Below are positions 27,480 to 59,050 of a stretch of 64,000 nucleotides of DNA, one piece after another. Each line of letters starts with the position of its first letter. Position 1 is the first letter of the stretch. The translations under genes and the position numbers were made by a program. Below the pieces are notes generated by a model, which had not been told where the DNA came from, searched no databases, and was given only the letters and a program-made list of their open reading frames with translations. The stretch comes from Methanolobus vulcani. GTDB taxonomy: Archaea > Halobacteriota > Methanosarcinia > Methanosarcinales > Methanosarcinaceae. The stretch is taken from the NCBI RefSeq assembly GCF_006546655.1, contig NZ_VIAQ01000011.1, positions 62,001 through 126,000 on the forward strand, in the 5' to 3' direction.

Positions 27480-29543
27480 CTATCCAGTCCTTTTGAAGAG
27501 CTTGGCCAGTTCATCCTTCGTAAAAGAAATCATAGTAGGTCGGCCGTGCGGACACGTGTAAGGATTATTACAGTTCATGAGCTGGCGTATAAGTTCTTCC
27601 ATTTGTTTAGTATTGCATACCGCACCTGCCTTGATAGCTGCACGACATGCCATGGTACTGCACAGAAGATCATAACGTTCCGTATCTTCCTTGACCCTGC
27701 CAACTGAAAGAAGGTCCGAGATTATATCATGTATCACATCAGTATCCTCAAGCTTACCGAAAATGCTTGGAACCGTAGTAACAACATATGTCTTTGGACC
27801 AAACTCAGATATAGAGAAACCCATTTCCTCAAGCTGTGGAATAAAATCCCCAATGATTGCTATCTCTTTCTGGCTCAGGTCAAGAGTAATCGGAGTGATG
27901 AGTTCCTGCCATCCCATATCCTGCATTCTCAGCACCTGCTCATACATGATACGCTCATGCGCTGCATGCTGATCAATAAGCACAAGCTTCCCATCCATCT
28001 CCGTAATTATGTAAAGATCAGCATACTGACCGAATACCTTCACTCCTGATGGATTAAATGAAGCGTTCAGCTCCTCTAATTCCTCCGGCCCTTCAGAACT
28101 TACATTCATTTGAAGCCGCTCACTTCTTTTCAGGCGGCGTTGAGTGTCTTTAGCAGGATAATGGTATGGTTCATTTTCCTCTTTGACAACACTTGTTTTT
28201 GGCTTTTCAACCGTTTCTTCATCAGAAATTATAATTGGAGAAGAACTTTCTAAATCATCGTTCGGCTTTTGAGAAACTATTTCCCCAGTACGAGAGGGCT
28301 CAACACTTTGATAATCATAAGATGAGACAGGTGTTTTTGATGAAGTGGACGTAACTTGTGCAGAAGAAACTGAAAATTCTGCCGGCTTTCTGGGTTCTAC
28401 TGAATCATATGCTACTGATCTGTCAGATGGAGTACTTGAAAAAGATGAACTTGGTTTAGCTCCTGAAATATTCAAACGTGACTGAACAGGAACATCTTTT
28501 TTGTCCAATTGAACTTCAGGTACAAGAGAATCCTTTGCAAGTGCTTTCTCTACAGCAGATATAATCATGACACCAATTTCTTTTTCATGACTAAGCCTGA
28601 CCTCACGTTTTGCAGGGTGCACATTCACATCAACGTTCACAGGGTTGATTATGAAATTAAGGAAAGCTGCAGGATAACGTCCTTTTGGAAGCAGGGTGTA
28701 ATAACCAAGCCTCACAGCATTGCTAAGCTGGTTTGAGTGAATAGGTCTGCCGTTTATGAAAAATACCTGGAAATCCTTTCCACTCCTGGTGAACTCCGGC
28801 TTTGATACATATCCTGAGATTGTCAGGAGGTCGGATTCGTATTCCAGTGGAACAAGGGAACGTGCAACATCAGCACCATACAAATGCACTATGCTGTCAA
28901 GCATTTTTACAGACGAGGGAGAACGCAGGTTAACTTTTCCATCTATAACCAGAGTAAATGAAACATCGGGATGTGACAGGGAGTTTCGTGACACGACATC
29001 TACAATATGTGCAAGTTCAGTTCTGGCACTTTTGAGGTATTTTCTGCGTGCAGGAGTGCTGTAAAATAGGTCATTTACAAGAATACTGGTTCCCACTGAT
29101 GCACCGGTAGAGGTTATGTTCTTGATTCCGCTGGTGTCAACCACTACCTTGGTACCCTCAATTTCCCCTTCCTGACGGGTGACCAGTTCCACACGTGCAA
29201 CAGAAGCAATGGAAGCAAGAGCCTCGCCCCTGAATCCCATTGTGAGAATATTATCAAGGTCCTCTATTCTGCCAATCTTACTTGTAGCGTGTTTCTTGAA
29301 AGCCATTGAAGCATCTGTATGACTCATTCCTGTACCATTGTCTACAACAAGGATGCTTTTCGTGCCATACCCCCCTATTTCCACTCGAACATCGGTTGCA
29401 TGAGCATCAATTGAGTTTTCAATAAGCTCCTTGACCACTGAGGCAGGACGCTCAATCACTTCTCCTGCTGCTATTTTGTTGATGGTGGACTCATCCAGTA
29501 ATTTTATTCGGGAACCTTTAAGATCACACGATTTCTCAGTCAT
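27480..29543 (-). CDS. mutL: DNA mismatch repair protein MutL (endonuclease type)
   Basis: MutL links MutS mismatch recognition to strand removal. The N-terminal GHKL ATPase has IAAGEVIERPASVVKELIENS, DNGTGM and GFRGEALASIASV. A flexible Ser/Thr/Pro-rich linker covers about residues 340-490. The C-terminal domain carries DQHAAHERIMYE (the metal-binding endonuclease motif missing in E. coli MutL) and CPHGRPT, so it should nick DNA. I place the start at MTEKSCDLKG, where AGGAAGTGGAAA gives a ribosome site; a GTG six codons upstream is an alternative. Its promoter block nearly matches that of mutS. Confidence 0.95.
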   Translation of the reverse strand: MTEKSCDLKGSRIKLLDESTINKIAAGEVIERPASVVKELIENSIDAHATDVRVEIGGYGTKSILVVDNGTGMSHTDASMAFKKHATSKIGRIEDLDNILTMGFRGEALASIASVARVELVTRQEGEIEGTKVVVDTSGIKNITSTGASVGTSILVNDLFYSTPARRKYLKSARTELAHIVDVVSRNSLSHPDVSFTLVIDGKVNLRSPSSVKMLDSIVHLYGADVARSLVPLEYESDLLTISGYVSKPEFTRSGKDFQVFFINGRPIHSNQLSNAVRLGYYTLLPKGRYPAAFLNFIINPVNVDVNVHPAKREVRLSHEKEIGVMIISAVEKALAKDSLVPEVQLDKKDVPVQSRLNISGAKPSSSFSSTPSDRSVAYDSVEPRKPAEFSVSSAQVTSTSSKTPVSSYDYQSVEPSRTGEIVSQKPNDDLESSSPIIISDEETVEKPKTSVVKEENEPYHYPAKDTQRRLKRSERLQMNVSSEGPEELEELNASFNPSGVKVFGQYADLYIITEMDGKLVLIDQHAAHERIMYEQVLRMQDMGWQELITPITLDLSQKEIAIIGDFIPQLEEMGFSISEFGPKTYVVTTVPSIFGKLEDTDVIHDIISDLLSVGRVKEDTERYDLLCSTMACRAAIKAGAVCNTKQMEELIRQLMNCNNPYTCPHGRPTMISFTKDELAKLFKRTG

Positions 29544-29600
29544 TTTCCACTTCCTGTCCACGGCAAGTATATTCCATAATCCAACCCATCACGGCAAAAA

Positions 29601-29633
29601 TATCTTGTTGTTAGTATTTTTGTGTTTGCATTG
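29601..29633 (-). promoter_or_regulatory. mutL promoter block shared with mutS
   Basis: This 33-base block matches the block upstream of mutS (33672-33704) at 30 of 33 positions. Read on the minus strand it holds CAAA and AAAAATAC elements in BRE/TATA-like order. It lies 58 bases before the mutL ATG. Confidence 0.7.
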
Positions 29634-29752
29634 CAAGTTTCAACTACTGATTAAAAACCTGCAAAGAATATGAAAATAAATGATTATTATCGCCCATACG
29701 ATTATATATATTCACGCATTGTAAGAGCCGACATTAAGTTAGAAGGTTCATT

Positions 29753-30934
29753 ATGAACAATTCTGAAAAAATAAAAAACATAGTACCGTTACTAGCTCTT
29801 TTGACCGCCTTTCCGGCGTTTTCAACTGATATGATACTGCCTGCCATTCCGTCCCTGGCAGTTTTATGGGATGAGCCCCTGTCAGTTGTTAACCTTATTC
29901 TTATAGGTTTCTTTGTCACCTATGGATTCTCACTGCTTTTCTACGGACCAATATCAGATAGGTACGGACGCAAGAAGCCTTTGATGGCCGGAATCATAAT
30001 TTACATAATTGCCAGCATACTCTGTGCCATGGCCTCCAGTGCAACTGCACTGATAGCCTTCCGCATACTGCAGGCCGCCGGAGCTGCTGCCAGTAGTTCC
30101 CTGTCCATGGCAATGACAAAGGATCTCTTTTCAGGAAATGAACGACAAAGAATTCTTGCATACATTTCTGTTATAATGGCACTCGCACCGATGTTCGCCC
30201 CGGTGGTCGGCGGATGGATACTTGCATACCTCAAATGGCACTGGATATTCATTGCTCAGGGAGCAATGGGAGTTCTCGGACTTCTTGGTGTCATCAGAAC
30301 ACCGGAAACCCTGAAAGAAACGTCAAACGCACCTGTATCAAAGGTACTGCATTCCTACGTGAACCTGCTGCATAACAGGATATATATTATCATGGTTCTT
30401 GTTATGTCACTTAGCCTTTTACCAATGTACAGTTTCATTGCCGGCTCATCAGACATTTACATCAACGGGTTCGGAATGAGTGAACAGACTTACAGCTACT
30501 TCTTTGCATTTAACGCCCTGGCACTCATGACAGGCTCCATGTCATTCCTGAAACTCGGCGACAGAATAAAACCGAAACATCTGATGACAGGAGGATTTGT
30601 GGGACTTGTAGTCGGAGCAGCCATTATTCTGACAATTGGAAATTACTCACCCCTGGCTTTTGCTCTTCCAATGGCTTTAGTCACATATTCCATAGGCATC
30701 AGCAGGCCACCAAGCAACCACCTAGTACTTGAACAGGTACACAAAGATGCAGGAGCTGCCTCATCTCTGCTGATTTTCACATATTTCTCTCTGGGAGCAG
30801 TAGGAATGTGGCTGGTGTCCCTGGATGTGATGGAACGCCTGCAGATACTTGGAACAATCACATTAGTATGTGGGGTTCTCACGTTTATTGCATGGATGGT
30901 ATTGCAGAAACAGGGAATAGGTTCAAAGAGCTGA
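29753..30934 (+). CDS. MFS multidrug exporter, Bcr/CflA family
   Basis: A 393-residue major facilitator with twelve predicted helices. The N-terminal LALLTAFPAFSTDMILPAIPSLA is typical of Bcr/CflA drug:H+ antiporters, and motif A (YGPISDRYGRKKPLMAG) follows in loop 2-3. Motif C-like GVVGGWILAYLKWHWIF-type sequence is at helix 5. It lies between mutS and mutL but on the opposite strand. ATTATATATATTC at about 29700-29712 and AAGG upstream of the ATG make a good promoter and ribosome site. Confidence 0.9.
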   Translation: MNNSEKIKNIVPLLALLTAFPAFSTDMILPAIPSLAVLWDEPLSVVNLILIGFFVTYGFSLLFYGPISDRYGRKKPLMAGIIIYIIASILCAMASSATALIAFRILQAAGAAASSSLSMAMTKDLFSGNERQRILAYISVIMALAPMFAPVVGGWILAYLKWHWIFIAQGAMGVLGLLGVIRTPETLKETSNAPVSKVLHSYVNLLHNRIYIIMVLVMSLSLLPMYSFIAGSSDIYINGFGMSEQTYSYFFAFNALALMTGSMSFLKLGDRIKPKHLMTGGFVGLVVGAAIILTIGNYSPLAFALPMALVTYSIGISRPPSNHLVLEQVHKDAGAASSLLIFTYFSLGAVGMWLVSLDVMERLQILGTITLVCGVLTFIAWMVLQKQGIGSKS

Positions 30935-30989
30935 ACGGAATAATACAACAAAGAATTAAGACAAAAATTAAAAATGCGTAAACTCCGCA

Positions 30990-33641
30990 CTATGCAAGTT
31001 TACTTTTTATTTCATGCAGCTTGTTCAGTGCCTCAAGCGGTGTCATGGAATTTACATCTATTTTTTTCAGTTCCTCAATGAGGGGATCAGGAGTTGTTTC
31101 AGTGTAAGTTGCTTCCTGATCGAACAGAATAACCTGAGTATATTTGGCACTGCTGTGCTGTTTCTTTTTACTACCCTTGCGGTCCTCTTCACTCAGCATG
31201 CACTCGTCCTCAATATCCTCGAGAATTTCCTTTGCCCTCGAAGTGACTGCATGAGGCACACCAGCTATCCTTGCAACATGGATACCATAGCTCCTGTCTG
31301 TTGCACCCGGAACGATCTTACGCAGGAAGACAAGGTCATCGCCATCTTCTTTCACAGCAATGTGGTAATTCTTAACCCTTTTAAGACTGGCTGCAACTTC
31401 GGTAAGCTGATGGTAGTGCGTGGCGAAAAGTGACCTGACACCAACACGGCCTTTGTTGTGGATATACTCAACAACTGCCTTTGCGATGCTGTAACCATCG
31501 TAAGTGCTTGTACCCCTGCCAATCTCATCCAGCAGTACAAGGCTCTTAGGTGTCGCATTGTTCAGGATGTTGGCAAGTTCAACCATTTCCACCATAAAAG
31601 TACTCTGGCCACTTGCAAGATCATCAAAAGCACCTACTCTTGTAAAAACCCTGTCCACAATTCCAATAGAAGCATATAATACAGGTACAAAAGAACCGGA
31701 CTGCGCCATGATAACGATCATAGCAATCTGTCTCATATAGGTGGATTTACCTGCCATGTTAGGTCCAGTGATAAGCTGGAACTGGTTCTCACTGCAGTCC
31801 ATCTCAGTGTCGTTGGAAACAAATCCACCGGGAACTGTATTTTCAACCACAGGATGCCTTCCATCCCTGATAAGCAACCTGCAGTCAGGTGTTATTGCAG
31901 GCCTGACATAATTGTTATTTGCTGCAACTTCAGCAAGGTTTGCAAGCACATCCAGTGTACCAATAAGAGCAGCAGTTTCCTGCAACTGTCTGGAATGTGA
32001 AGCTACAATAGTATTTAGCTCACTGAGAAGTTCGTATTCCAGAGCCACCATTTTTTCATCAGCCGAGAGTATGGCACTCTCACGTTCCTTCAGTTCAGGA
32101 GTATAGAACCTCTCAGCATTGGTCATGGTCTGCTTCCTGATATAATCGTCTGGAACCTGTGAGATGTTGGCCTTTGTAATTTCAAGATAGTAGCCGAAAA
32201 CCTTGTTGTAGCCTACTTTCAGGGACTTTATCCCGGTCCTATCACGTTCTTTCTGCTGGAACTTCGCAATCCATTGTTTACCGTTCTTCGAAAGGTCGAA
32301 CAGCTCATCAAGCTGCTCATTGTAACCGGGTTTAATCATCCCTCCATCCCTGACACTAAGAGGAGGTTCCTCCACGATTGCGCTGTCTATGAGTTTTGCA
32401 AGCTCATCCAGTTCTGCAAATGATGAAAGCTTTGATGAAGTGCTCTCAAGCAATTCTATGTCTTTGCATCCCTGGAGAGAATCAAGCAAAAGAGGAACGG
32501 ATTCAAGTGATTTTTTAAGGGAGACAAGGTCTCTTGCATTGGAATTACCATACATGACCCTTCCAACAAGACGTTCCATGTCCTTTACATAGGAAAGATG
32601 AGCACGGATATCGAATCTTACAAGTGTATTATCGTGAAGCCATGAAACAGCATCCAGCCTATCATTGATAGCATCCACAGAAATTAGTGGTTTCAGCAGC
32701 CATTTCTGTAACTGCCTTCTGCCCATCGGGGTTTTTGTTTCATCAAGTACACCGATAAGAGATGCATCGTTTCCCTCACCTCTGACATTCCTGACAATTT
32801 CCAGGTTCCTCAGGGTAATGGCATCCAGAACCATGAACTCGGAATCAAAATAAGTCTTTAGCGTTTGTACCTGTGAGAGTTCTCTCATCTGGGTGTCTGT
32901 TGCATAACGCAATGCTGCACCGGCAGACGAAACTGCCGCCAGAAGTTCACTGCAACCCATACCCTCTAAAGTAGTTACTTTAAAGTGGTCAAGGAGAACT
33001 TTTTCAGCAATTTTGTGATCAAAGGAATCCTCATCAACCTCATGAATAATTATCCTCAGGTCTTTTATTCTCTCTTTGAGATGAGTTTCTTTTAGCAGGG
33101 ATGGTGGCATGATGCACTCAGACGGCCCCATGCGTGCAAGCTCACTTATGATGCGATCATATGGCTGCTCATCGGTAAGCTGGGTTGCAAGGAATTCTCC
33201 TGTTGAAATATCCAGAAAAGACAGGCCAAATTCACCTTTATCACCATACAAAGCCACGAGATAATTATTAGAGGAATCCGAGAACATAGAGGAATCCATC
33301 GCTGTGCCCGGAGTTACAACCCTCACCACTCCTCTTTTCACAACACCTTTGGCCTGTTTCGGGTCTTCAAGCTGCTCACATATGGCAACCTTGTATCCTT
33401 TTTTAATCAGTCGAGGAAGATAATTATCTATTGCATGATAGGGGATACCGGCCAGTGGCATCTTTTCCCCATCCTTATCCTTCCCCCTGGTTGTCAGGGT
33501 AATCTCAAGTTCCTTTGCAATTGTCTTTGCGTCTTCTCCAAATGATTCGTAAAAATCCCCCATCCTGAAGAATATGAGGGCGTCCTTATGCTCTTCCTTG
33601 GCTGCATAATACTGTTGCATGGCAGGGGTTACTTTACTCAT
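30990..33641 (-). CDS. mutS: DNA mismatch repair protein MutS
   Basis: An 883-residue MutS1. The N-terminal mismatch-reading loop carries GDFYESF (the Phe-x-Glu that stacks on the mispaired base). The connector, lever and clamp domains follow, then the ATPase with TGPNMAGKSTYMRQ, DEIGRGTSTYDG and FATHYHQL. The C-terminal end continues to a small dimer/tetramer region. As a bacterial-type gene it fits acquisition by the Methanosarcinales lineage. GGTG lies about 9 bases before the ATG. Confidence 0.96.
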   Translation of the reverse strand: MSKVTPAMQQYYAAKEEHKDALIFFRMGDFYESFGEDAKTIAKELEITLTTRGKDKDGEKMPLAGIPYHAIDNYLPRLIKKGYKVAICEQLEDPKQAKGVVKRGVVRVVTPGTAMDSSMFSDSSNNYLVALYGDKGEFGLSFLDISTGEFLATQLTDEQPYDRIISELARMGPSECIMPPSLLKETHLKERIKDLRIIIHEVDEDSFDHKIAEKVLLDHFKVTTLEGMGCSELLAAVSSAGAALRYATDTQMRELSQVQTLKTYFDSEFMVLDAITLRNLEIVRNVRGEGNDASLIGVLDETKTPMGRRQLQKWLLKPLISVDAINDRLDAVSWLHDNTLVRFDIRAHLSYVKDMERLVGRVMYGNSNARDLVSLKKSLESVPLLLDSLQGCKDIELLESTSSKLSSFAELDELAKLIDSAIVEEPPLSVRDGGMIKPGYNEQLDELFDLSKNGKQWIAKFQQKERDRTGIKSLKVGYNKVFGYYLEITKANISQVPDDYIRKQTMTNAERFYTPELKERESAILSADEKMVALEYELLSELNTIVASHSRQLQETAALIGTLDVLANLAEVAANNNYVRPAITPDCRLLIRDGRHPVVENTVPGGFVSNDTEMDCSENQFQLITGPNMAGKSTYMRQIAMIVIMAQSGSFVPVLYASIGIVDRVFTRVGAFDDLASGQSTFMVEMVELANILNNATPKSLVLLDEIGRGTSTYDGYSIAKAVVEYIHNKGRVGVRSLFATHYHQLTEVAASLKRVKNYHIAVKEDGDDLVFLRKIVPGATDRSYGIHVARIAGVPHAVTSRAKEILEDIEDECMLSEEDRKGSKKKQHSSAKYTQVILFDQEATYTETTPDPLIEELKKIDVNSMTPLEALNKLHEIKSKLA

Positions 33642-33671
33642 GATGATTCACACCAAATTCGTGCCCCAAAT

Positions 33672-33704
33672 TATCTGGCTGTTAGTATTTTTGTTTTTGC
33701 ATTG
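33672..33704 (-). promoter_or_regulatory. mutS promoter block shared with mutL
   Basis: See the mutL block: 30 of 33 positions are identical. It ends 31 bases before the mutS ATG. On the minus strand TGCAAAAACAAAAATACTAA contains the putative BRE and TATA elements, which puts the transcription start near 33662. Confidence 0.7.
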
Positions 33705-33731
33705 AAGAAGGGATGAAATTATACACGGAAA

Positions 33732-36554: not shown

Positions 36555-39500
36555 TCAAACTACAGTCACGTTCATTCCCTTTACTTCAGCCACAACCTCC
36601 GGATTATAATACGAGTAAGCCTTGCTCTCTGACACAACTGCCTTCACCGGGAAGAGAGCCTGAACCTGCATACTGAAGTTCAGTTCTTCGTCAGCCTGCA
36701 TGTCATCGATATAGAAGATTACTTTCCTTCCGGCAATCTCGTATCGGGTTATCTTATCCTCTGATGCTTTTGTTGCTTCGAGGGTTGAAGTTACAGGACT
36801 GAAACCAGTCGGAACCGCAAGGTCAACTATCACCATACCACTTGAACTTGTAGTGCCATCGATGCCGGTGATTCCGTTGTACTTGATGTGAGCGTTAACT
36901 GTCACGACATCGTTAACTGAAACATCAGTTGAATCATATTCAACATCAAGCTCAATCTCATTTTGCTCAATGACATCAGGAAGAATCACATTGAAACGCC
37001 TTACAAGCTGATAGTTCAGGTCGCCTGTACCTTCCATTTCAAGTTCCACCTTTGAAGTTCCATCCGGAATCTCAATTATCTGGACAACATCAAAGTTCTG
37101 CTGATTCACTTCAACGGATTTGACCTCTGTTCCATCAGCAATCACATGAACTGTTGCATCAATATCCCTTCCGGCAGATGCTGCTGCACTCATCAAAGCC
37201 CTGAAAGCCATGACAGTATCCTGAGTACTTGAGAATCCGCCATTGGAATTACGCTGTGCAGCAATCCATTTCAATGCTGGTGTTGCTGAAGGATTCTTTG
37301 CCTCGATAAGTGCAAGGGTGGCGTATGCAGTCGTTTCCACATTCTTACTTGAAGGAGCTATGAAACCATAACCACCATACTCGTATGGAAGTTTGATATC
37401 ACCGTCACCATATCCCCAGTACATGCCGTCATCATCCTGCTTAGAGATTGCCAGCAGCTCAGTAAGAGCTTCATCTGCCATAGAACTGTTAAGTTTCTGC
37501 AACGCAAGAGTTCCGATAGCAAGTGCATAAGGATCGTCCTGGCTTGCAAGGTTATCTTCAAGATATTGCTGGGCTTTTGCCATAACAACAGGGTTTGCAG
37601 AACCGTACTCCCCAAGTGCAAGGGTTGTGTAGGCTGTTAGTGCATAGGTACCACTCAAACCTCCCATCATGTCCTGATGAATAACAAAACCGACCTGCTC
37701 CCATGAACCATCTTCCTGCTGGTAGAATTCTATCCAGTCTGCAGCATCGGAAAGTATATCCTCATCAATGGTGGTGACATCCCTTGCACCACTGAACTGG
37801 GAAAGCACAAATGAAGTAAGCCAGAGACTACCACTTTCATCGCTCTCACCGAATGCTGAGAATGAGCCATCACTGTGACGGTATGTCAGTTCACGCTGGT
37901 AGCCCGTGATGATGTACATCTCAGCCTTTGCACGAACCTCCGGATTATCCTGTCCGGTTGCTTTCAGGTATCGCAATACCTCAACGTCAGTGGAGAATAG
38001 CATCATGTTCTGCTCACCGCATCCATATGGCATACCAAGCAAATCATCCACTCCGCTAATACTCTGCGCAACAATGCTTGGAGTAAAACTAACAAGCACC
38101 TTTTCAGAATCAGGAACAATGTCTGCTGGCAGTGTTGCATCAAGCTCCACAGAACCGTTGCTCAGCACTCCATTGTCAACTATCTCACGGGTTGCACCCT
38201 CAGCCTCAACAATGATATCCTTTCTGACAGCATCGGCTCTTTCTGTTGTCTGGCCTGTTATTTCAACAATCTGTTTTCCAACTTTTGTTGGACTTATAGT
38301 GAAGCTGGCATATCCCACACCATTTCCATCCACAGTAACAGTCTGGATATCGTCACCTATTATCCTGAACCAATCAGCGTTACTAAGCGTGAGTTTGACA
38401 TCCTGCTCGGTATCAAGATAATTATAGACCTGTACCTGCACAGGGAATTCCTCGCCCCTTGTCACAGAATACGGCAGGTCAGGGTCAACAAAGAAATCCT
38501 GGAATACAGTCAGACTGGACTCTGAAATACCAATTCCCTCCGAACCGGTTGAAACTGCATGTAACCTCCAGGTGGTGATGCTGTCAGGTGCATTCAGGTC
38601 AACACGTGCAAGACCATCATCATCGGTTAGAAGTTCAGGCATCCACACCCATGTCTCAGGGAAGAACTGACGCACACGCTGCACTTCTGCAAGGTCGCCT
38701 CCATCTGCCATTGATTTATCAAGTCCTCCTTCTTCAGTAGGAATTGTCTCCATCCCCATTGCAGGCATCTCTTCAACCATTTCGTCTTCAACGTCCATCA
38801 TGAAACCTGCAAAATTTACAGCATCAAAAGCGACCTCTCTTCCATCAAATACAGCAGCACTATCGTATTCATCTGAGCGTGGAACATCAATTCCCGGCGA
38901 TGCCATTACTACCATACCTTCGTTGTAAAGGGTATCATAAGCACCTTCCGAGTACCATGAGGGATGAGATTCTGCCTGTGGTTCCATGAAACGCTTTTCC
39001 AGCTCATCAAATACCTGTTTAAGATTGAGCCTGCCTTCACTGAGAGCATAGACTGATTCATCAACTATAGAGAATCCAATCATTGACCTGCTGCCAGCAT
39101 CGAAATCAATTGTAACATTGTCCCCCGGTTCAGCCGATTCGCTGCTGAATAAACTTGAAAGATCGACCTGAGTAGAGAATTCCACATCAAACGGAAGCAC
39201 ATCCACTGACACCTCGCTGTTGGGGTTTATCATGTAAGCAACAACCTTTGCCTGTGGGCTCATCTGTGGTGTCACTGGAATGCTGATATCAGCTTCATCG
39301 CTTGTTGCTGAATAAACGGTTCTTCCGTTGGCAAACACATCATAGAACACAGTTCCGGGATTTGTGGAATACACATGGAACGAAATTGCGTCACCAACTT
39401 CTGGCACTCCATCACTTACCTGGGTGATGTGTATGAAACTGGCACTAGGAGAGTAAGCAGCATTTAATGACTCACTTGCCCATGCATTAGTAGCATCAAT

Positions 39501-40817
39501 GTATGCACTTATGTACAGGTTGGTACTATTGTAAGGAATATCAAGCTCAAGCATTGCAATCCCGTTCTCAGTGCTCAGATTATACTGTTCATGTGTATCC
39601 TCATAGGACTCGTTCCTGAGTCGTGTCTCAACTGAAACATCAGCATCAATAGGCTCCCCTGTCGGGTCCTTTGTAACCAGAAGTACCTGCAATGGCATTC
39701 CGGGTTTGATAGTGCTTGATTCCGGGATTAACTGGAGGACGATTGACGACTCGGTGATAGTCAAAAGTTTATTTGTGGACTCACTGTGGTTTCCAGTGTC
39801 TGTGACTGTAACATTGAGCATGAGACTTGCCTGTCCTCCTGCCCCATAAGTCCCTGTTGCATATTCCACGGCAGGAAGTTCAAACTCAATGCTTCCGTTC
39901 TCAAGTTTGCCTGAGAAGGTTGCGTATTGTTCCCACTCACCAACATAGCGGGAAGCTTCCACAAGTACATCCCCATCCACTTCTTTTCCAAAGAAATAAT
40001 TGGCTGAAACTGTGCCTGTTATTTCATCTGAAACAAGGAACCATTCCTGTGGGGTTTCAAGTGAAACATCAAACTTTGGAAGCACATATTTGTCAACCTG
40101 AATGTCAACATTAGAACTGGAGCTTCCTGACGATGCTATTATTTTCCATGTTCCAAGGTTAAGTTCGGATGCGAGTGGAAGGTCAAAAGAAATTACACCG
40201 TATTCGTTTGAGCGAAGTTCTTCCTTGAATACCTTGATGCCTTTTGCATCCGTAATTTCTATCGTTACATTCTGTTCCACAGGAACAAGATTGTTATTCA
40301 GGGAAACTACCCTGCCGTGTATTGTCTGACCGGGTTTGTAGATGGGTTTGTCAGTTTCGATGAACAATGGATTGTTCTTTACAACATCCACTGTTGCTGT
40401 GAATTCAGTATCAACACCTGAAGGCTTTGCTGAAAGTACATATGTCCCCTCTTCAACATCAGGCACTTCAAAGGTAGCTACAACATTTCCTGATTCGGAT
40501 GTAGACGCCTGGACAAGAGTTATCTCATTGTCATTTTCGTCTGTAAGCGTATATTCCACACAGCGTTCCACTGATCGGTTATCAGAAAAAGCTGCCATTG
40601 TCACAGAGCTTTCACCGCCTGAGAAAAGGGTTTGTGGTGCAAGTATGAAGAACTCATCACCCATAGATGATACCTGACCACCACATGGCCCTGCAATATT
40701 TGACGGAAGAACAGAATCTGTATTATTTCCTATACAACCCGATATCAGGGCTGCAAAAATTGTCGCCAGCGATACCAATAGAATTAATGATCCTTTATTT
40801 TTTCCTGTAAAGTTCAT
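36555..40817 (-). CDS. Alpha-2-macroglobulin family lipoprotein with thioester motif
   Basis: A 1420-residue surface protein. The N-terminus is a lipoprotein signal: hydrophobic stretch then LISGCIGN, where Cys would be lipid-modified. MG2-type repeats (for example YKPGQTIHGRVVSLNNN), the A2M bait-region-like acidic stretch (DVEDEMVEEMPAMGME) and the A2M domain (WVWMPELLTDDDGLARVDLNAPDSITTWRLHA) follow. YGCGEQNM near residue 925 is the internal thioester (Cys-Gly-Glu-Gln). A terpenoid-cyclase-like helical domain and receptor-binding-like end complete it. In bacteria these proteins trap attacking proteases. The role in archaea is untested. GGAG lies about 10 bases before the ATG; a TATA-like AAGTATATAC is at about 40888-40897. 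Confidence 0.92.
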   Translation of the reverse strand: MNFTGKNKGSLILLVSLATIFAALISGCIGNNTDSVLPSNIAGPCGGQVSSMGDEFFILAPQTLFSGGESSVTMAAFSDNRSVERCVEYTLTDENDNEITLVQASTSESGNVVATFEVPDVEEGTYVLSAKPSGVDTEFTATVDVVKNNPLFIETDKPIYKPGQTIHGRVVSLNNNLVPVEQNVTIEITDAKGIKVFKEELRSNEYGVISFDLPLASELNLGTWKIIASSGSSSSNVDIQVDKYVLPKFDVSLETPQEWFLVSDEITGTVSANYFFGKEVDGDVLVEASRYVGEWEQYATFSGKLENGSIEFELPAVEYATGTYGAGGQASLMLNVTVTDTGNHSESTNKLLTITESSIVLQLIPESSTIKPGMPLQVLLVTKDPTGEPIDADVSVETRLRNESYEDTHEQYNLSTENGIAMLELDIPYNSTNLYISAYIDATNAWASESLNAAYSPSASFIHITQVSDGVPEVGDAISFHVYSTNPGTVFYDVFANGRTVYSATSDEADISIPVTPQMSPQAKVVAYMINPNSEVSVDVLPFDVEFSTQVDLSSLFSSESAEPGDNVTIDFDAGSRSMIGFSIVDESVYALSEGRLNLKQVFDELEKRFMEPQAESHPSWYSEGAYDTLYNEGMVVMASPGIDVPRSDEYDSAAVFDGREVAFDAVNFAGFMMDVEDEMVEEMPAMGMETIPTEEGGLDKSMADGGDLAEVQRVRQFFPETWVWMPELLTDDDGLARVDLNAPDSITTWRLHAVSTGSEGIGISESSLTVFQDFFVDPDLPYSVTRGEEFPVQVQVYNYLDTEQDVKLTLSNADWFRIIGDDIQTVTVDGNGVGYASFTISPTKVGKQIVEITGQTTERADAVRKDIIVEAEGATREIVDNGVLSNGSVELDATLPADIVPDSEKVLVSFTPSIVAQSISGVDDLLGMPYGCGEQNMMLFSTDVEVLRYLKATGQDNPEVRAKAEMYIITGYQRELTYRHSDGSFSAFGESDESGSLWLTSFVLSQFSGARDVTTIDEDILSDAADWIEFYQQEDGSWEQVGFVIHQDMMGGLSGTYALTAYTTLALGEYGSANPVVMAKAQQYLEDNLASQDDPYALAIGTLALQKLNSSMADEALTELLAISKQDDDGMYWGYGDGDIKLPYEYGGYGFIAPSSKNVETTAYATLALIEAKNPSATPALKWIAAQRNSNGGFSSTQDTVMAFRALMSAAASAGRDIDATVHVIADGTEVKSVEVNQQNFDVVQIIEIPDGTSKVELEMEGTGDLNYQLVRRFNVILPDVIEQNEIELDVEYDSTDVSVNDVVTVNAHIKYNGITGIDGTTSSSGMVIVDLAVPTGFSPVTSTLEATKASEDKITRYEIAGRKVIFYIDDMQADEELNFSMQVQALFPVKAVVSESKAYSYYNPEVVAEVKGMNVTVV

Positions 40818-57631: not shown

Positions 57632-58957
57632 TTATTGTAATTTTCGGAGAATGTCGGTAAAATCGTTTGAACGATAAAATAGAATTTTTTTCTTGTCAAC
57701 TTTGTTTCTTTCCAATAAACCCAGTTTCTCTAAACCCAATATATCAGTTCTAGCAGTCTGATACACAACAGATAACCTGTTTTCTATCTCTTTTATTGTA
57801 AAAGTCATCTTAGGGTCATCAGACAACCATTTTAGAATGTAAGATTGTCTTTCATTTATACCGGGTATTTTCTTGAAATCATATAACTTGTTCTTTTCTT
57901 CTATTTTCCTTGAGATGTATTCTTTCAAACTTTTGAAAGCCTTATCCATTGTTTTTAATTGATAATTTATGAAGTAAGTTACGTCGTTCTCATCAAGTTC
58001 TGTATATAGATAAGCCTGAGAATATTGCCCAGGAGAATCTTTAATCATCCGTGATATTGACATATATTCTATTAACCAATAATTTTTTGAAAGTAAGTAC
58101 CAGTAGAATAATGCCCTTGCTGTTCTTCCGTTACCATCAACAAAGGGATGGATATATCCTATTAAGAAATGCAATATGCTTGCTTTAATTATCGGATGAA
58201 TGAAATCATCGTCAGATTCTTTGTTTATGAAATCACATATATCCTGCATAACCTGTGAAATATGAATATGCTCCAACGGAGTGTGTACAATTTCACCGGT
58301 CATGTTGTCAATTACATAGATGTTATCTGATTTGCGAAATACACCTATGTGATCCGGATCATCCAGAGTATTTTCTGTCATACAGCTATGAATATCCAGT
58401 ATCGATTCAATGGTCATTTTTTCGTTTTTCATTGATGATAATTTCTTAATTGTTTTGTAGTTGTTGAAAATCATCTGCTCTGATTTGTCTTTTGGATTTC
58501 TTTCCTGCATCAGCATTTTTTTTGCTTCCTGCCGTGTAGTACTTGCACCTTCCAATTGACTTGATGCTATTGCTTCCTCCATTATCGAATTCATCAAATA
58601 CTGCTGTTGATGGTCTTTTCCAATAATGTTCTGACTTTCAAGAGTACCACCTAAATTCAAATCAAAATTATGCAATTTTTCCTGAATATCAGAAGTTAAA
58701 TAATAACTAAGTTGAAATCCAGGAATATCACTGATTTTTAATTGCTCCGAGCCTAAACCCCTGCTTAGTTTAAGCAGTAACCATAGTTGTTCATGTGTGA
58801 CAAAATCAGGAATCGTTTTGTGTTTAAATTCAGACCAATATAGATATCGATTGTTGTATTTTTTTGTAGCCGCGCTTACGTCAGCATTATTAATATAATG
58901 CAGAATGCTCTGCAAAGACGAATCATTTAATTCAGGAGGAGCTTCAGGAATCCTCAT
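57632..58957 (-). CDS. Fic-domain protein with inhibitory helix and C-terminal HTH
   Basis: A 441-residue Fic protein; these usually move AMP from ATP onto target proteins. HPFVDGNGRTARALFYW is a complete catalytic motif. The inhibitory motif SSQLEGAST, ahead of the Fic core, places it among class II Fic proteins that hold themselves inactive. The C-terminal part (TIKEIENRLSVVYQTARTDILGLEKLGLLERN) is a winged helix that may bind its own promoter. GAGG precedes the ATG. Two large palindromes lie just upstream. Confidence 0.92.
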   Translation of the reverse strand: MRIPEAPPELNDSSLQSILHYINNADVSAATKKYNNRYLYWSEFKHKTIPDFVTHEQLWLLLKLSRGLGSEQLKISDIPGFQLSYYLTSDIQEKLHNFDLNLGGTLESQNIIGKDHQQQYLMNSIMEEAIASSQLEGASTTRQEAKKMLMQERNPKDKSEQMIFNNYKTIKKLSSMKNEKMTIESILDIHSCMTENTLDDPDHIGVFRKSDNIYVIDNMTGEIVHTPLEHIHISQVMQDICDFINKESDDDFIHPIIKASILHFLIGYIHPFVDGNGRTARALFYWYLLSKNYWLIEYMSISRMIKDSPGQYSQAYLYTELDENDVTYFINYQLKTMDKAFKSLKEYISRKIEEKNKLYDFKKIPGINERQSYILKWLSDDPKMTFTIKEIENRLSVVYQTARTDILGLEKLGLLERNKVDKKKILFYRSNDFTDILRKLQ

Positions 58958-58974
58958 TATAAACCTCTAGATAG

Positions 58975-59050
58975 TAATTACTAATTTAGTACAAATTAGT
59001 AATTAATAGTAATTAAATCTAATTACTAATTTTAACAAAATTAGTAATTA
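58975..59050. repeat. Two long inverted repeats between fic and the HEPN-like pseudogene
   Basis: Palindrome 1: TAATTACTAATTT / AAATTAGTAATTA, 5-base spacer, 58975-59005. Palindrome 2: TAATTACTAATTTT / AAAATTAGTAATTA, 3-base spacer, 59020-59050. The same half-site occurs four times. The region lies 18-93 bases upstream of the fic start and 9 bases past the HEPN-like stop. Confidence 0.8.

Follow-up and report, generated by a model that had tools for sequence, protein, structure and literature searches.

A nearly identical block stands before the mismatch repair genes mutS and mutL of this Methanolobus genome. The best explanation, which we hold at roughly four chances in five, is that an ancestral mutS-mutL operon was split and that its head promoter was then copied to mutL, restoring joint expression of the two genes. 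Sequence comparison establishes the components of this reading, namely the adjacency of the genes in relatives, the gene that now intervenes, the homology of the mutL copy and its restriction to one clade, its conservation amid decayed flanks and the uniqueness of the block in the genome.

A repeated block before mutS and mutL

The window, the whole 64-kb stretch of DNA that was analysed, carries both genes on the minus strand. The mutS gene (30990..33641) encodes DNA mismatch repair protein MutS of 883 aa (NCBIfam NF003810, 1075.7 bits, cut-off 480). Its nearest counterparts at named loci, with up to 96% identity, come from M. vulcani, M. profundi and other Methanolobus, which makes this genus the most likely source of the window. 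The mutL gene (27480..29543) encodes DNA mismatch repair endonuclease MutL (NCBIfam TIGR00585, 549 bits, cut-off 180); its ORF opens at GTG 29561, and the ATG start at 29543, placed by orthologues, gives 687 aa. Between them, antisense on the plus strand, lies a Bcr/CflA-type MFS efflux gene (29753..30934; TIGR00710, 220.4 bits, cut-off 200.9).

Positions 29601-29633 and 33672-33704 are identical at 30/33 bases. In gene direction the mutS block reads CAATGCAAAAACAAAAATACTAACA and lies 38 bp before the mutS ATG (33641), and the mutL block reads CAATGCAAACACAAAAATACTAACA and lies 65 bp before the mutL ATG; block-to-ATG distances were counted from the end of CAATGC...CTAACA. Identity between the two sites is 91% in the block and 28–33% in the flanks. 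The coordinates and the match count of a preliminary description of this DNA were exact, and it rightly had both blocks pointing toward their genes amid unrelated flanking sequence. The pair is the top-scoring 33-base direct match of the window. The second best (29/33) falls within coding repeats of a CDC48-type AAA ATPase. No match to the 26-base core of the block was found in dinucleotide shuffles of the window. Across the 2.92 Mb assembly, a search with the core that allowed up to 3 mismatches finds exactly two sites, those of mutS and mutL; the reversed control gives none.

The two sites can be extended slightly beyond the block. The mutS head promoter, which would be the ancestral promoter of a mutS-mutL operon, spans 33668..33707 (minus strand) and is conserved in other genera and families. 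The mutL copy, delimited by local alignment with the mutS promoter, spans 29597..29637 (minus strand) and occurs in one Methanolobus clade only. This alignment scores 55; shuffled sequences reach at most 27.

Parts of the promoter

A probable BRE/TATA-like part, CAAAAATACTAA in gene direction, was assigned at 33682..33693 in the mutS promoter and at 29611..29622 in the mutL copy (both minus strand). It is invariant before mutS in the 12 clade genomes aligned and nearly invariant before mutL in 14 genomes. Upstream of it stands AATGCAAA, a possible regulator site, at 33696..33703 before mutS and 29625..29632 before mutL (minus strand). The mutS element takes the form ATGCAAA in other genera and in family f5, and the mutL element is AATGCAAA or AATGAAAA in most of the 14 genomes. 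We infer that ACAAAAATACTAACA consists of an A-rich BRE-like part and a weak TATA-like part. The A-rich CAAAAATA is conserved; the TATA part, ATACTAAC, is off-consensus as judged by eye rather than with a scoring matrix, and in other families it is, again by eye, ATAGGAAT or ATACCTCC.

The position of the element suits a core promoter. The block ends 37–40 bp before the mutS ATG and 54–106 bp before the mutL ATG in Methanolobus, and 20 bp before the ATG in genus g11, distances that leave room for transcription to begin at the start codon or ahead of it. In relatives with a recognisable element the end of CAAAAATA is at least about 26 nt from the ATG, which likewise fits a start site at or before it. 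In M. psychrophilus BRE/TATA elements are predicted about 19–22 nt before mapped starts (PMC5378194), and the position of the mutS BRE/TATA-like part fits this spacing. An activator bound at AATGCAAA, just upstream of the core, could contact the core machinery there. The TATA-like part varies among families and CAAAAATA and, in many, ATGCAAA are retained, a pattern compatible with such a putative activator.

The degree of conservation is normal for the genus, since equal conservation is found at unrelated genes. In a control with orthologue upstream regions of ten Methanolobus genomes, several unrelated genes had 24–25/25 conserved bases, in a list that also includes spurious antisense ORFs. 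Exceptional promoter conservation was dropped as an argument for this reason. What is unusual is that the element is common to two genes and that one of its sites is a clade-specific copy.

Two other upstream regions of the window are recorded here as separate observations. A 1420-residue alpha-2-macroglobulin-like protein with MG2, bait region, TED and receptor-binding domains is encoded at 36555-40817, and a 25-base stretch upstream of its gene is invariant in nine relatives. A long palindrome, TAATTACTAATTT-N5-AAATTAGTAATTA, occurs twice (58975-59005 and 59020-59050), with the copies 45 bp apart, and immediately precedes a Fic-domain gene that may also encode an HTH (57632-58957, minus strand). 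The two palindromes resemble a paired operator that may be autoregulatory.

Operon states in Methanolobus and its relatives

Among the family and order genomes searched, most have their mutS and mutL matches side by side. The genes are together in these relatives, and the split lineage has an intervening gene. Within Methanolobus, four genomes (G041, G049, G053 and G057) possess a tight mutS-mutL operon with spacers of 18–40 bp and no MFS gene between, and none of the four has the block before mutL. Where the head element is recognisable in intact operons, it stands before mutS only. A full MFS gene separates mutS from a mutL without block in six genomes, and an MFS gene remnant lies between them in one more (G044). 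In 14 genomes, the window's included, the MFS gene is accompanied by the block before mutL. The putative mutL promoter shares homology with the head promoter, and the four intact operons lack it at mutL.

In the MutS tree G057 (operon) lies close to G044 (remnant) and G050 (full insert), so the operon can apparently regain its intact form through loss of the insert. G053 has, besides its usual mutS-mutL operon, a second, divergent full-length MutS (G053:C19:792-3434) that is 45% identical to the window's. In G058 (L210, G058:C1:332200-336500) a decayed block and mutS stand about 1.15 kb apart, with an antisense gene of collagen-like repeats between them, so that here it is the mutS promoter that has been displaced. 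A re-created block at this mutS was considered and rejected, as the match was not significant when start-proximal bases were left out (p about 0.06).

Origin of the mutL copy

In a MutS tree with outgroups Methanolobus forms two clades, and the mutL block is restricted to one of them (support 99/99). The sole member of that clade lacking the mutL block is G049, where the MFS gene is missing too. In the sister clade the same gene splits the operon, but mutL is without a copy. In the MFS tree, genomes with and without the block form separate groups (support 100/99), a topology that would be expected from one insertion inherited vertically. With intact operons close to the base of each clade, one has to assume repeated later loss of the MFS gene, or recombination. 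The MFS gene of the window (29753-30934) groups with those of G058 and G039 and not with those of its MutS neighbours G062, G063 and G046. The intergenic region of the window resembles the G043/G058 type. Local recombination may account for both features.

Each mutL upstream region was aligned with a mutS promoter, its own where available. In 14/14 block genomes the scores were 45–65 over 31–47 bp, with shuffle maxima of 25–32. The seven insert or remnant genomes without block scored 14–17, which is shuffle level. Homology of the mutL copy extends beyond the TATA-like part into CAGATA-TTT, suggesting that about 40 bp were copied. The direction, from mutS to mutL, is indicated by the presence of the element before mutS far outside the block-bearing clade. 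The block is near-invariant against flanks that are about 30% identical. Both copies can still be recognised amid diverged surroundings, which points to purifying selection at either site.

The following sequence of events is proposed. The block would be the head promoter of the ancestral mutS-mutL operon. Early in Methanolobus the efflux gene would have entered antisense between mutS and mutL, cutting mutL off from its promoter. In one clade a segment of about 40 bp, comprising AATGCAAA and the BRE/TATA-like ACAAAAATACTAACA, would then have been copied into the new efflux-mutL intergenic region and retained there, so that mutS and mutL are each transcribed from their own version of the same promoter. 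Joint control of both repair genes is plausible on this basis. That both copies are active promoters and respond alike is, like the manner of copying, something we infer from the sequence.

Several observations weigh against the copied promoter or limit what it implies. Its TATA-like part ATACTAAC departs from consensus. The operon states at G049 and G053 require the repeated MFS gene losses, or the recombination, mentioned above. The sister clade keeps the split without the copy, so a shared promoter is not indispensable. Finally, since other Methanolobus promoters are equally conserved, conservation alone is no proof of special regulation.

Depth of the element and alternative explanations

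The element before mutS is recognisable in genera g2, g3, g7 (most members), g10 (some members) and g11; the g13, g12 and g9 genomes inspected show no recognisable element. Before mutS it takes the form ATGCAAAAACAAAAATAGGAATA in family f5 and AAACCCCAAAACAAAAATACCTCC in family f2. Every match to the f5 pattern with up to 2 mismatches is at a mutS start; with 3 mismatches there are a few elsewhere, at control level. All matches to the f2 pattern are at mutS starts. In most f5 genomes mutL is on a contig separate from mutS, and the block was absent from 20/20 f5 mutL upstream regions inspected, a few of them short or with uncertain starts. Matches essentially at mutS only, together with none at f5 mutL, make the element look like the footprint of one promoter rather than a regulon motif.

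A role for a regulator could nevertheless be added to the copying itself. In this extension AATGCAAA-ACAAAAATA would be the site of a putative dedicated mismatch-repair regulator, tied to mutS across families of the order, and selection for keeping MutL under that regulator would have driven the copying. We regard this as rather unlikely.

An independent regulon is a still weaker proposition. Here a site for a dedicated regulator would have arisen separately at two transcription units and so formed a mismatch-repair regulon. The element does occur at both genes of one pathway and nowhere else in the genome, and conservation also covers what lies upstream of the BRE/TATA-like core. However, the mutL site is a homologous copy that reaches beyond any motif, it arose once, after the operon had been split, and the f5 mutL genes, mostly apart from mutS, lack the element in the upstream regions inspected. 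Other repair genes lack it as well. Genome scans found no repair gene other than mutS and mutL carrying the element, and matches to looser patterns were mostly inside genes or without a downstream repair gene. The element is thus confined to mutS and mutL in this genome and essentially to mutS in f5 and f2, and no wider repair regulon turned up. We consider independent origin improbable.

These results bear on the interpretation given in the preliminary description, of which a part stands. The element does lie in promoter position before both genes, did not come from gene duplication and is restricted to mutS and mutL. The idea survived the genome-wide search for unrelated genes carrying the block, which returned the two sites only, and the search for conservation in relatives, where the element was found before mutS. 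The portrayal of two unlinked transcription units that gained a shared regulon motif is not supported. The genes lie on the same strand, about 1.4 kb from each other and separated by a single antisense gene, and they most probably descend from one operon, the head promoter of which was copied once another gene had come between them. Nor did the genome-wide scan proposed there for other repair genes reveal any besides mutS and mutL.

Two ordinary core promoters might also be alike because BRE/TATA sequence is common or has converged by chance. The core promoters of several Methanolobus orthologues are indeed equally well conserved. Only two sites exist in the genome at up to 3 mismatches, so this is not a common promoter sequence; moreover, the match spans 31–47 bp in one clade only and shuffles yield none. 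Such resemblance is very improbable. A small mobile or repeated element that landed by chance before both genes, suggested by two near-identical copies with unrelated flanks, is scarcely credible and was ruled out as an origin, since this genome has two copies and the other Methanolobus genomes at most one further weak match (G043 C11), the element keeps a constant place and orientation ahead of mutS or mutL, copy number across 112 genomes contradicts it, and an Rfam search of the block gave no family at threshold.

Discussion

Splitting of the mutS-mutL operon followed by copying of its head promoter would make Methanolobus a natural experiment in operon evolution among closely related genomes. 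The states represented are an intact operon, a split without compensation, a decaying insert, an apparently restored operon and a split with a copy of the head promoter. In the open-access literature we found no description of an operon head promoter copied to a stranded gene, or of the promoter in the block itself.

Parts of the picture have parallels. In Haloferax volcanii mutS1-mutL are found in operons, and archaeal mutSL genes are thought to be of bacterial origin (PMC7776575). The operon arrangement is shared with Methanolobus; the parts of that report consulted mention no split or copied promoter, unlike the situation here. Operon-like structures of haloarchaea acquire internal promoters where gaps have grown or other genes have come between (PMC7760734). 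They are alike in that an archaeal operon is broken and a promoter stands before the downstream gene, and one case has an opposite-strand gene between. In the parts of that study consulted, promoters were scored by a general BRE-TATA motif, and copying of a head promoter to a stranded gene is not described.

A further likeness is to the chromosomal islands (SpyCI) of Streptococcus pyogenes. Their insertion cuts mutL off from the operon's only promoter, which lies ahead of mutS, and strain Manfredo regains mutL expression from a new promoter (PMC4129442). In both systems inserted DNA parts mutL from the mutS promoter, and the putative mutL promoter of Methanolobus would correspond to the new one of strain Manfredo. 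SpyCI is a 13–20 kb excisable island inside mutL, whereas the Methanolobus insert is one antisense gene between the genes, and nothing in Methanolobus suggests excision or a switch as in SpyCI (PMC4129442). The rescuing promoter of SpyCI is the island's own (PMC4129442), whereas that of Methanolobus would be a copy of the operon's head promoter.
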